This document shows, piece after piece, positions 42,418-48,407 of a stretch of DNA of 64,000 bases. The notes beneath the pieces were generated by a model. The model saw nothing but the letters and a program-made list of their open reading frames with translations, searched no databases and was not told the DNA's origin. The position numbers and the translations under genes were made by a program. Numbering within the stretch: position 1 is the stretch's first letter; each line of letters begins with the position of its first letter. The stretch comes from Bartonella rattimassiliensis 15908. GTDB lineage: Bacteria; Pseudomonadota; Alphaproteobacteria; Rhizobiales; Rhizobiaceae. The stretch spans positions 62,001 to 126,000 of the forward strand of contig NZ_JH725069.1 in assembly GCF_000278215.1 (NCBI RefSeq), read 5' to 3'.

Positions 42418-42683
42418 AATAATCCGTCTTGAAGTTATGCTATTTCAAATCAACAGCGCTCTCATGGCAACCGATATCAGAATAACTCCACCTTCAACTT
42501 TCATATCAATCACAATGAAAAAAAGAGCTGCAGTTATTCAAATACACATCCTAATGCATCATACTTAAAGAAATGTTATAATTTTTTAAAAATACTTTGG
42601 GTTCAAGTATACATTTCAAAAACACCGACCCATAAAAGTCTATATGTAATCGATCTTATAAAATATCGCTTATAATCATGGAA

Positions 42684-43074
42684 TATCAGTCGGCCTATAA
42701 GCCGGGTTCTGTATAATAAAGCTTACGCTTTACATGGCAACCATTCATCTAGGACGGATGTTACCATCCGCCTCGTGCAACCTACCCGAATGACTCGCCC
42801 GGAAATCGGCTGCAAATTAAATTTTGCACGTCATTTCTATTTGGTCTTGCTCCCGGTGGGGTTTACCTTGCCACATTCATTACTGAATGTGCGGTGGGCT
42901 CTTACTCCACCCTTTCACCCTTACCTATAAAAATAGGCGGTTTACTTTCTGTGGCACTTTCCCTAGGGTCACCCCCGCCGGGTGTTACCCGGCACCGTCT
43001 TTCCATGGAGCCCGGACTTTCCTCACCTGCCGCCTTTAGGCATTAGACAAGCGCGGCTGCCCAGCCGACTGACG
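42684..43074 (-). ncRNA. rnpB: RNase P RNA (type A)
   Basis: The RNA is the catalytic part of RNase P, which trims tRNA 5' ends. On the minus strand GAGGAAAGTCCGGGCTCCAT near the 5' end is the universally conserved core, and the 3' end has CAGAACCCGGCTTATAGGCC. The ends pair as TCAGTCGGC / GCCGACTGA (helix P1), which sets the bounds. The 390-base size is normal. It lies 265 bases before rsmH. Confidence 0.95.
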
Positions 43075-43669: not shown

Positions 43670-44660
43670 TTTCTCTTTACTCAAAAGTTCTCAAATTCTA
43701 ACCGCAAATAATTTGCGAATGTATTGTACAAAAAAAGAAAGCAAAAGAACGTCTTTAAAAGGGAAATATTAAGACTATTTCAAGATAAAATCCCGCAGTA
43801 AAAGAAAATCTCTTTATGCATAAATTATAGATTTCTCTATATCATAAAATAAAAAATAAAGATACTATAGTTAAACTTATATCATATTAAACAAATATGA
43901 TATACTATTAATTCATGCTGTAGCTATTATAATATTCAATTTTTATATTACAAAATTAGAACTTTAAATAGATATAACAGTCTTTCATATACAGTATGAA
44001 ATTTTTGATTGAGATTAGCTCTGCATAGGAGACATAACTACTTTTATCGAAGATCCCTCGATATCGCAAAAGCTTCACAAAAAATAAAAACTGTTCTTAA
44101 TGCTTCCCGCTAGTCAATAAATACCTGCAGTACTCTTTATGCCCAATAAATCACCGACCAAAACCGATCGTAAATCCCATATACCCTACTTCATCATTAT
44201 GCATAAGAAATTTACAAATATACCAAAACTATTCCATTCTCTATGAATTCAAAATATTGCGCAAACCCTTTGAGGGTTTTCTATCCGCCCATATCAAACG
44301 AAAAAAGTAACCGGCCTATAAAATGCGTTAACCCATTTCATTACAGAAAATTCTGCTTTCGCTTTTCTGCAAATTAGCACACTCAGATTATCTTCAATCT
44401 TTTATAAAATACTATATTGATTTAAAGTGTTTTTTATTGCTTTTGTTGTTATAGAAATAATAATGCAGTTAGCCTAACGAATGCCCTTAGATGAACTCGC
44501 TATTGTTCTTGTAAATTACAACGTTATCTTTATACTCTGATTTCTTATCTTTTTGTAAAATAAGTTTTCTGATTATCTTACGCATTCATTATCTTCCTAA
44601 TACGCCTTTCAAAAACTCATGAAAAGCTTGCCCCCCCCCAATCAAAAATGCGATTTTAAA
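43670..44660. other. Non-coding stretch, about 1 kb
   Basis: No open frame of substance on either strand. Around 44080-44220 the minus strand reads EVGYMGFTIGFGR before a stop, which could be an outer-membrane-protein relic, but it is too short to name. A nine-base poly-C run is at 44631-44639. Confidence 0.4.
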
Positions 44661-44665
44661 AACGG

Positions 44666-45046
44666 CTAAAAATAAGCATTCGCAATAGAGGGATGAGAAA
44701 CCGCTTTTGAGAGAACCATAGCAACGGTTTTACCAAACTCTTGAGCTTTCTCATTCCCATAACCATTTTCACAAGCAAATGAAACTACATCACGACGAAC
44801 CTTTTCAATAAACAGCTCCTGCTGCTGAGGATTCATCTTAGAAAGGCGCATGATAATATCTGGAAAAGACACAGACAACCTCTCTAGCAATGCCTCCTCT
44901 GTTACATCAATCTGCTGAGAAGAAAAAGAAGAACGACCGGGAAGAAACTGAGAAATAGTACCGCTCCGTAAAGCAAAAAGACCAGCACCAAAAATAGAAA
45001 ACATAAATAAAATAAGAACAATACGATGTCCGAAAGATCCCATCAT
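44666..45046 (-). CDS. Small membrane-anchored hypothetical protein
   Basis: Not recognised. The 126-residue product has one N-terminal hydrophobic helix (about residues 8-27, IVLILFMFSIFGAGLFAL). A helical, charged region follows (VTEEALLERLSVSFPDIIMRLSKMNPQQQELFIEKVRRDV). AGGTAAGAGAG directly before the ATG supports translation. It is isolated between long non-coding stretches, and the predicted small RNA lies upstream on the same strand. It may be genus-specific. Confidence 0.6.
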   Translation of the reverse strand: MMGSFGHRIVLILFMFSIFGAGLFALRSGTISQFLPGRSSFSSQQIDVTEEALLERLSVSFPDIIMRLSKMNPQQQELFIEKVRRDVVSFACENGYGNEKAQEFGKTVAMVLSKAVSHPSIANAYF

Positions 45047-45249
45047 CTCTCTTACCTAAAGATTACAGAACAAAAACACAGATTCGCTTTATAGCATTTA
45101 ACGATACTTCAATAAAGAAAAATTCTCATCACTTGAATAAATATGAACACTAACCAATCCATAACCGCTATCCACTACAGGCTCAATAATAGCAGATCTT
45201 ATATCTTTTACCCCCTCCTGATAACACCTTACAAAACTATAACAAAAAC

Positions 45250-45372
45250 AAAAAAACCTGACTGAGGAAATCCTCAGTCAGGCCAGACAATCTAAGGGAT
45301 CCACGCGGGGGGGGGGGGGAGGAGGTTCCCCGATTGTCTTCCCGCATCAACCACTAAGGTAGCCGATGCAAT
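45250..45372 (-). ncRNA. Predicted structured small RNA with anti-Shine-Dalgarno motif
   Basis: Read on the minus strand, three consecutive stems are visible. GCATC/GATGC lies at 45344-45369. AGACAATC/GATTGTCT pairs 45332-45339 with 45285-45292. A perfect 12-bp CCTGACTGAGGA/TCCTCAGTCAGG hairpin (45257-45282) is followed by TTTTTTTGTTTTTG, a strong terminator. The loop of stem 2 holds CCTCCTCCC inside a 13-base C run. This three-hairpin layout with CCTCCTCCC recalls the alpha-r14 (NfeR1-like) family of alphaproteobacterial small RNAs, which block ribosome sites; that match is from memory. Ends are estimated. No protein gene overlaps it. Confidence 0.7.
45307..45319. repeat. 13-base G/C homopolymer
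   Basis: Thirteen consecutive G on the plus strand, in a genome segment that is otherwise AT-rich. It lies inside the loop of the predicted small RNA, directly extending its CCTCCTCCC motif. Tracts this long are prone to slippage, so the length may vary between cells or reads. Confidence 0.9.
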
Positions 45373-46144
45373 ATTATTGCTATGGAACAAAATGCTTTAA
45401 ACAACAAGAAATTCTTATCATCTTATACGCAAAAAAGCATAAAAGAATTATAAATCGTTTAAAAATGGTGATATTTAGGCAAAAAAAATTCAAATTGACC
45501 CAATTTGAAGCAATTTTATTTCTAAAAAATTCAATAAAAATTTCCGACCATAATAATTTTTTTCATCACTCCGATAATCATAATTAACAAACTAGGTAAT
45601 TTGTATGCTTCACCCTATAAAAAGCAAATTCCAGAAAGGCAGAATCAGAAGAATCACTTATCCAACAGCGATCACCACAAAAAGAAAAACATCTGCTCAA
45701 AGGAGGATATGAGTCACTTAAAATAAAAACAATAACTTAGGTAAATAGAATCTTATCTATCTTCATAAAAATTTCTGCAAATGATCTTTTAAACTATTAT
45801 CAAACCACTTACGCATTACGCAAACAACATCAATGAAAAATTTAAACAACTTAATTTTACAAAAAATAAGAGCTCTGAAAATATTTATTCCGAATCGTGT
45901 CCCATAATCATGCTAAATAACAATAAACTATTCTACACTAGCCAAAAGACTCCACTGCATTTTAATATAACGAGCAAAGATCAGTGCAGGCATTTTCTCT
46001 TAATCTCTATCACTTAACTTAACCCATAAAAACACGGCAGTTTTCATACTCAAAAATTATTCCACTTTGTTCTTTTAACGTAAATAATTCATTGAATTAC
46101 AAATCATAATTCATCATTTTACAACTTACTGTAAAAATCTAAAC

Positions 46145-47468: not shown

Positions 47469-48407
47469 TTATGCAAACTCTACTTGTTTATCTTTGATAT
47501 CATCAACCAATAAACGCGGATCGCGAGCAAGCCAAAGTGTAACCATACCCTCCTCATTATTTTCATTTTGGGTAAGATCGAGACAAGAAGTTCGTTCTAA
47601 AATAAGTCCCGCATTTTTAAACCATTGTTCTATTTGTAAAGACGAAAATCCAAAATGCATAGATGCTTGATAAGAATGTGAAGACTCAACTTTATGATAA
47701 CCAAAATCTATAATCAATAAACGCCCATGAGGACGCAAAACACCTGATATCTCCTGAAGAAACATTTCAGGATTTTCAAGAAAATGTAAAACCCAATGAA
47801 GAATTACAAAATCAAAAGTTATATTTCCCACAGACAAGTGCAAAACATTGCTATCAAGCACGATTTCAACCGCATGCGTATAAAGATCAGAAAATAATTT
47901 TAAAACAGAATCCCCACCCCTTCCAATATTAAGAATTGTCTCAAATGGTTTATCGCCAACGATTTCAAGTAAAGCATTTTCCACAACATGATCTGCCATA
48001 TAGGATGATCGTAATACATCCCATTGCGATGTATTTTGTAAAAAATGCTTCTTTTCCATCTTTTGACGCTGCTTTTTAACGTCCTTCAAACGTTCTAAAT
48101 CATGCGCTAATATCATATCATGCTTTGGCAAAGCCGAAAGAACACCCATCACAATATCTTTCCCCCAAAAGTCATGACAAAGCTTAAAATAAAGGCAATC
48201 TCCCTTCTGATAACGCTCAATCAATCGTGCTTCGTATAATAAACGTAAATATCGCGCTATACATACTTGCGACTGCTCAAGAATAAAAATAAAATCAGGA
48301 ATTGTTAAATCTTCATGATGCAAAAGTGTAAGAACACGTAAATGGCTTACTTCTGCTACCGCTTTCAGCAGCATAATCATTGCATCTAAACTTTCATTTT
48401 TTTTCAT
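47469..48407 (-). CDS. ArsR-type regulator fused to a SAM-methyltransferase-like domain
   Basis: A 312-residue fusion. Residues 1-90 form an ArsR winged helix (LLKAVAEVSHLRVLTLLHHEDLTIPDFIFIL, then VCIARYLRLLYEARLIERYQKGDCLYFKL). Residues about 130-300 resemble a class I methyltransferase (FDFVILHWVLHFLENPEMFLQEISGVLRPHGRLLIIDF). The usual SAM loop is altered to ILNIGRGGDSVLKLF, lacking the DxGxGxG pattern, so binding may be changed. In relatives such fusions sit near methionine-cycle genes; none is here. A perfect palindrome covers its promoter region, suggesting autoregulation. Confidence 0.85.
   Translation of the reverse strand: MKKNESLDAMIMLLKAVAEVSHLRVLTLLHHEDLTIPDFIFILEQSQVCIARYLRLLYEARLIERYQKGDCLYFKLCHDFWGKDIVMGVLSALPKHDMILAHDLERLKDVKKQRQKMEKKHFLQNTSQWDVLRSSYMADHVVENALLEIVGDKPFETILNIGRGGDSVLKLFSDLYTHAVEIVLDSNVLHLSVGNITFDFVILHWVLHFLENPEMFLQEISGVLRPHGRLLIIDFGYHKVESSHSYQASMHFGFSSLQIEQWFKNAGLILERTSCLDLTQNENNEEGMVTLWLARDPRLLVDDIKDKQVEFA

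Follow-up and report, generated by a model that had tools for sequence, protein, structure and literature searches.

The window analysed here is a stretch of 64,000 nucleotides from Bartonella rattimassiliensis 15908 (contig NZ_JH725069.1, positions 62,001 to 126,000), and all coordinates given below refer to it. A small RNA gene of about 125 nt lies on the minus strand at 45250..45374, with the 5' end inferred from the promoter. The upstream neighbour on the same strand encodes a methyltransferase-domain protein (47469..48407, Pfam Methyltransf_11) and the downstream neighbour a 126-aa protein with no Pfam match (44666..45046, minus strand); the RNase P RNA gene is located in the same neighbourhood (42682..43072, minus strand, RF00010, 323.8 bits). 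None of the listed open reading frames of at least 60 aa covered the RNA. The initial annotation had placed the RNA in a protein-free stretch; a 73-aa plus-strand frame starting at 45366 overlaps the RNA at its 5' edge only.

Folding of the minus strand from 45380 to 45240 gave three hairpins with an energy of -59.1 kcal/mol (z -6.2), and none of 200 shuffled sequences folded as well, in agreement with the three stems expected on this strand. Hairpin 1 (45342..45371, minus strand, positioned from the natural-length fold) has a covarying stem and a variable loop. Hairpin 2 (45285..45339, minus strand), whose pairing is conserved across the alignments, presents a C-rich loop. The last hairpin is an intrinsic terminator (45255..45284, minus strand) followed by T7GT5, as had been described; its stem was initially reported as a perfect 12-bp helix, whereas it consists of 13 pairs, 7 of them G-C, which we read as 11 Watson-Crick pairs and two G-U pairs at the base. 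The proposed pairing region in hairpin 2 (45303..45325, minus strand) consists of CCUCCU, C13, and GCGU, the motif running directly into the 13 C as first noted. In the predicted fold, the first CC of this region pairs with GG and the C-run is unpaired. The C13 tract itself occupies 45307..45319 of the minus strand (G13 on the plus strand), and its length differs between relatives. At the RNA, no Rfam family scored at or above its gathering threshold; matches to anti-hemB, NsiR1, and Hrs13 in related loci were weak, below gathering, and taken as terminator-driven.

Upstream of the RNA, a -35 element CTTGTT (45403..45408) and a -10 element CCATAG (45380..45385) were assigned on the minus strand. 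The corresponding pattern CTTG-N17-YCATA was present in 65 of 71 members, a count made on the members alone and without a shuffled control; the spacer was 17 nt in all 65, with 16-18 nt permitted, and the other six were missed by the pattern. The proposed promoter was not among the sites of a general sigma-70 scan, which picked the overlapping site TTTAAA-N17-AATAAT (45401-45373) and yielded promoter and terminator counts similar to those from shuffles. The promoter assignment therefore rests on conservation. A well conserved block, AAGAATTTCTTGTTGTTTAAA, overlaps the -35 element on the minus strand (45396-45416) and contains an AAGAA-A-TTCTT palindrome. It was seen in 29 aligned main-clade loci and was not seen by eye in the deep clade (both groups are defined below); this block is possibly a regulator site.

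A DNA search found the RNA in 29 of 37 genomes of the genus, including the own genome, and in none of 24 others of the order. A first covariance model (R1) was built from these 29 sequences, and covariance searches recovered the RNA in all 71 Bartonella genomes, with 140.4 bits at 45250-45378 of the window for a model that includes this sequence. Each genome had one full-length match except G101, where a second one overlaps the first on the opposite strand; the other second matches were the palindromic terminator read from the opposite strand. The RNA is thus single-copy and genus-wide. The scores fell into two groups, one of 57 genomes (92-151 bits), called the main clade, and one of 14 genomes of 2.2-2.9 Mb (33-52 bits), for which "deep clade" is a label based on score and not on a tree. 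From genome size, we take the latter to be the insect-gut Bartonella. Synteny was inspected in four deep-clade stretches of 20 kb (L182-L185). Two of them, L182 and L184, show the arrangement of the window, the RNA being flanked by the methyltransferase gene and rsmH in unchanged order and orientation. In L183, rsmH follows about 6.5 kb downstream of the RNA, and 1.4 kb of contig remain on its upstream side; L185 contains rsmH but yielded no match for the methyltransferase gene. This gene is also upstream of the RNA in a further deep-clade stretch, L073. Because of the shared order of methyltransferase gene, RNA, and rsmH, the deep-clade matches are very likely orthologs despite their low scores. 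In other genera of the family, only weak matches were obtained, in 3 of 149 genomes with model R1 and in 16 of 243 with model R2; some genomes belonged to both samples. Visual inspection of nine of these loci as candidate relatives showed, in every case, what looked like a bare terminator without a C-rich loop.

In the unfitted alignment of 29 sequences, 98.2% of the cells pair and 11 of 37 pairs show compensatory change, a level of covariation that none of 500 shuffles reached. With 69 distinct sequences, the values were 97.3% and 31 of 37 pairs changing on both sides; fitting to the model biases this larger alignment in the model's favour, and the 29-sequence alignment is hence the cleaner test. 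Hairpin 2 was paired in 99.3% of cells (29 sequences) and 98.3% (69 distinct sequences), with changes on both sides in 12 of its 15 pairs in the latter set. The RNA structure is under selection, and the covariation between stem arms that had been proposed as a check in other Bartonella was found. Taken together, the conserved promoter pattern, the intrinsic terminator, the presence in 71 of 71 genomes, and the covariation indicate that the feature is a real small-RNA gene with three hairpins, as the initial annotation had supposed.

The loop of hairpin 2 differs between the two clades. The final C-run comprises 9-14 C in 52 of 57 main-clade members, and 5 or 7, with a T further in, in the other five. 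Deep-clade loops contain C6 or C7 followed by GC in 14 of 14. What all 71 members share is consequently a stretch of five or more C with GC directly after it (57/57 and 14/14). The loop had been described as that of an anti-Shine-Dalgarno RNA, and CCUCC does occur in 51 of 57 main-clade members (CCUCCUCCC in 42 of 57), but this motif forms a part of the loop and is found in none of the 14 deep-clade members. The genus-wide element is accordingly the C-run with GC, and the anti-Shine-Dalgarno motif is a secondary part of the loop. The longest C-run was predicted to be unpaired with a mean of 0.91 in the 57 main-clade and 0.93 in the 14 deep-clade members, the lowest value being 0.80. Mimicry of the 16S helix 45 sequence, GGGGAACCU, was considered for this RNA and dropped because 9 of 57 members have GGGAGCC.

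The C tract is not a chance occurrence. It is the longest G/C run found in its own genome, the next longest being 11 (39 overlapping G8 matches, collapsed to 23 tracts), and across the 279,906 bases of 35 named Bartonella loci, each of the 34 G/C runs of at least 8 proved to be this tract. In the window, a C9 run on the plus strand (G9 on the minus strand) is present at 44631-44639, 26 bases past the stop of the 126-aa gene. Since no such run is found in the loci of the 35 named relatives, this G9 might pair with the C tract in this species.

We propose that the gene encodes a trans-acting small RNA with its own promoter and a C-rich loop that pairs with G-rich leaders and probably hinders ribosome binding (probability of about 0.66). 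The RNA of about 125 nt would be transcribed from a sigma-70-type promoter and ended by the intrinsic terminator, and hairpin 2, according to the predicted folds, would hold the C-rich loop open. The loop could then pair with G-rich stretches of mRNA leaders and start regions, with repression through hindered ribosome binding as the most likely outcome. The ancestral seed likely consisted of a short C-run and a following GC; the run seems to have grown to 9-14 C in the main clade, where it usually has a CCUCC anti-Shine-Dalgarno arm.

The length of the C tract was compared across relatives and is not fixed. Among main-clade pairs with at most one substitution elsewhere, it differed in 7 of 8, although these pairs are not independent and share 10 genomes; with at most two substitutions elsewhere, it differed in 17 of 22 pairs, which likewise share genomes, and three B. 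vinsonii subspecies have 9, 10, and 11 C. The lengths were taken from one assembly per taxon, in which homopolymers are error-prone. By these numbers, tract length changes faster than the rest of the RNA. The initial annotation had regarded the tract as slippage-prone and suggested that a changing number of C could alter loop size or target pairing and so give a phase-variable riboregulator. The length differences between close relatives agree with the first point, but no sign of a functional switch was observed, and the C-run is predicted to be unpaired in all 71 natural variants.

Two interpretations of the tract were weighed on this basis. One is a phase-variable riboregulator, in which the seed itself is a slippage-prone homopolymer, so that the tract varies within populations and switches or grades the regulation of mRNAs with G-tract leaders. 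The length differences among near-identical pairs and the B. vinsonii subspecies speak for it. On the other hand, the tract is positioned after the promoter and is not crossed by any conserved reading frame, and the assembly-derived lengths carry the above uncertainty. Furthermore, since the C-run is predicted to be open in every natural variant, the folding models lend no support to on/off phase variation, and we consider this interpretation, including its graded form, unlikely. Instead, the tract seems to drift by slippage while the loop stays open, so its length probably either tunes pairing slightly or is neutral.

The second interpretation takes the tract as a neutral product of slippage and assigns the action of the RNA to other parts, for example the conserved GCGUGGAUCCC side. 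Consistent with this, GCGUGGAU was invariant in 29 of 29 sequences and present in 56 of 57 main-clade members, and G6 runs were more numerous in main-clade samples (58 in 264 kb, 43 in 200 kb, and 21 in 140 kb) than in the deep clade (12 in 200 kb); another genus had 11 in 200 kb. The G6-denser main-clade samples (L205-L211, L242-L251, L262-L271) are AT-rich, and the deep-clade samples (L252-L261) are GC-richer. Because G6 runs are denser in the main clade, part of the tract expansion may reflect a looser genome-wide brake on G/C runs. Nevertheless, 52 of 57 members retain a C-run of at least 9 while no other G/C run of at least 8 exists in the 35 named neighbourhoods, and C6-7 precedes GC in all 14 deep-clade members, all of which are devoid of CGCGUGG. 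A wholly neutral tract is therefore improbable.

The architecture had also been likened to that of the alpha-r14/NfeR1 (cuckoo) anti-Shine-Dalgarno RNAs. The available part of the description of NfeR1/alpha-r14 (RF02344) gives three hairpins, unpaired CCUCCUCCC, and an RpoD-type promoter (PMC10746234), features that the present RNA shares, CCUCCUCCC being found in the main-clade loops. NfeR1 is described there as having three redundant anti-Shine-Dalgarno loops (PMC10746234), and the family is characterised in the same source by three hairpins each with CCUCCUCCC; in the present RNA, hairpin 2 alone carries it, giving one C-rich loop against three, and CCUCC is absent from the deep clade. An Infernal search with RF02344 at E values up to 10, as had been recommended, gave no match in 45150-45500 and none in the own genome, whereas as a positive control the model matched 19 of 61 genomes of the order, 6 of them over the cut-off. 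Within the genus, 40 of 71 genomes had an RF02344 match at E 0.1 or better. Those over the curated cut-off were exactly the 14 deep-clade genomes, and the other 26 were below it; inspected by eye, none of the places in these 40 genomes coincided with the poly-C-loop RNA, so the two are found at different loci of the same genomes. Because RF02344 also gave a match below the cut-off in one of 14 control genomes, the weak matches may be due, at least in part, to chance. Decay or divergence of the alpha-r14 family in the main clade is possible. From the missing model match, the separate loci, and the single C-rich loop, membership in this family was rejected as very unlikely; by analogy, the RNA may still work in a similar way.

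A tiny open reading frame frameshifted by slippage, which an ATG frame running through the tract in the window would allow, is the least probable explanation and was rejected as a general function, as an ATG frame crosses the tract in only 36 of 57 members (53 of 57 with ATG, GTG, or TTG) from differing starts, and in 25 of 57 a stop codon directly follows the hairpin-1 GATG/GGTG.

For the trans-acting RNA that we favour, G-rich start regions were sought as targets. Target prediction had been suggested at the outset; when 183 own start regions were scanned by energy, 11 reached -8 kcal/mol or lower, compared with 17 for reversed sequences, and there was thus no excess. The top match of the scan was located, with GGGCGGGGGG, upstream of a gene (L242:15192-17804) that we read as ClpB-like, its best PHROGs match being "ATP-dependent protease"; the true start of this gene is probably further in. 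A search for a G-tract start pattern returned 86, 119, and 84 matches against 44, 35, and 29 in reversed sequences, overlapping matches being counted. G6 before the start was found in 3 of 183 own genes, in 1 of 154 and 0 of 102 genes of other main-clade samples, in 0 of 148 deep-clade genes, and in 1 of 172 genes of another genus; because it is so rare in the sampled stretches, the class of G-tract start sites is small at most. A prophage-like stretch with a late transcriptional activator and an Rz-like spanin (L246, G000:C1:340001-360000) had G4 or longer before the start in 8 of 18 genes, versus 15 of 165 when the window and nine further sampled stretches were counted together; this contrast was noticed after the scan and no claim is made of it.

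The 1,445,021-base genome G099, which we take to be B. bacilliformis strain KC583, carries an ortholog whose fold energy was about -45 to -50 with one parameter set, depending on which likely 5' end was taken, and -51.0 with default parameters. In the accessible part of the report on B. bacilliformis small RNAs, BbsR9 (BB092) is an intergenic RNA with a sigma-70 promoter and a terminator, is conserved in other Bartonella, and has GC-rich seeds in a large stem-loop and a fold energy of -46.9 (PMC7717549). The poly-C-loop RNA likewise has such a promoter, a terminator, and conservation in Bartonella, and resembles BbsR9 in its GC-rich seed in a large stem-loop and its similar fold energy, whereas that part of the report contains no mention of poly-C or length variation (PMC7717549). 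BbsR9 is described as binding the gcvT, nuoF, and ftsH mRNAs in vitro via GC-rich regions (PMC7717549). In G099, GGGG was present in the 150-nt start region of all three targets versus 19 of 101 background genes. The complement of CCCCGC, G[CT]GGGG, a motif framed after the targets had been seen, occurred at two of the three versus 0 of 101. The G-runs of the three genes are only partly conserved between species, GGGG being missing at nuoF in the own genome of the window and at gcvT in G009. By energy, gcvT, nuoF, and ftsH ranked 4, 24, and 68 of 102 (50, 26, and 46 in a cruder scan), and the energy test alone hence gives no support to the identity. Provided that BB numbering runs along the chromosome, BB092 would be expected somewhere near this locus. 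The link is circumstantial, and we lean towards the B. bacilliformis ortholog being BbsR9. BbsR14 of the same species differs from the poly-C-loop RNA in having, in the available description, two TTCCTCCTAA loops (PMC7717549).

Parallels in other bacteria were drawn from partial accounts. GsrN of Caulobacter is similar in that a C-rich loop pairs with the G-tract of the katG leader, and unlike the repression proposed here, it activates katG; the comparison is a loop analogy by description only (PMC5869019). According to the same account, BLAST homologs of GsrN are limited to Caulobacteraceae, typically near general-stress-response genes (PMC5869019). RepG of Helicobacter pylori likewise uses a C/U-rich loop against homopolymeric G, with repeat length mattering; in that system, it is the target that carries the variable repeat, and the pairing loop belongs to the terminator (PMC8295292), whereas the poly-C-loop RNA has the variable repeat in its own middle hairpin, and the lineages are unrelated. 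For HPnc4160/NikS, the repeat is in the promoter region. From these accounts, RepG and HPnc4160/NikS are the nearest precedents for regulation by a length-variable repeat; a literature search that took in few subscription journals and no supplementary tables returned no small RNA whose seed loop itself contains a homopolymer of variable length.

With this RNA, Bartonella gains a genus-wide small RNA that has a covariation-backed structure and a clear pairing element preserved in both the deep and the main clade, and that is now separated from alpha-r14. A testable identity is offered for the published RNA BbsR9; the RNA has possibly already been seen in one species. If the tract length matters, this would be a regulator whose specificity element is itself hypermutable, and if a slippage-graded seed were true, it would be the mirror image of RepG, in which the variable repeat sits in the target.
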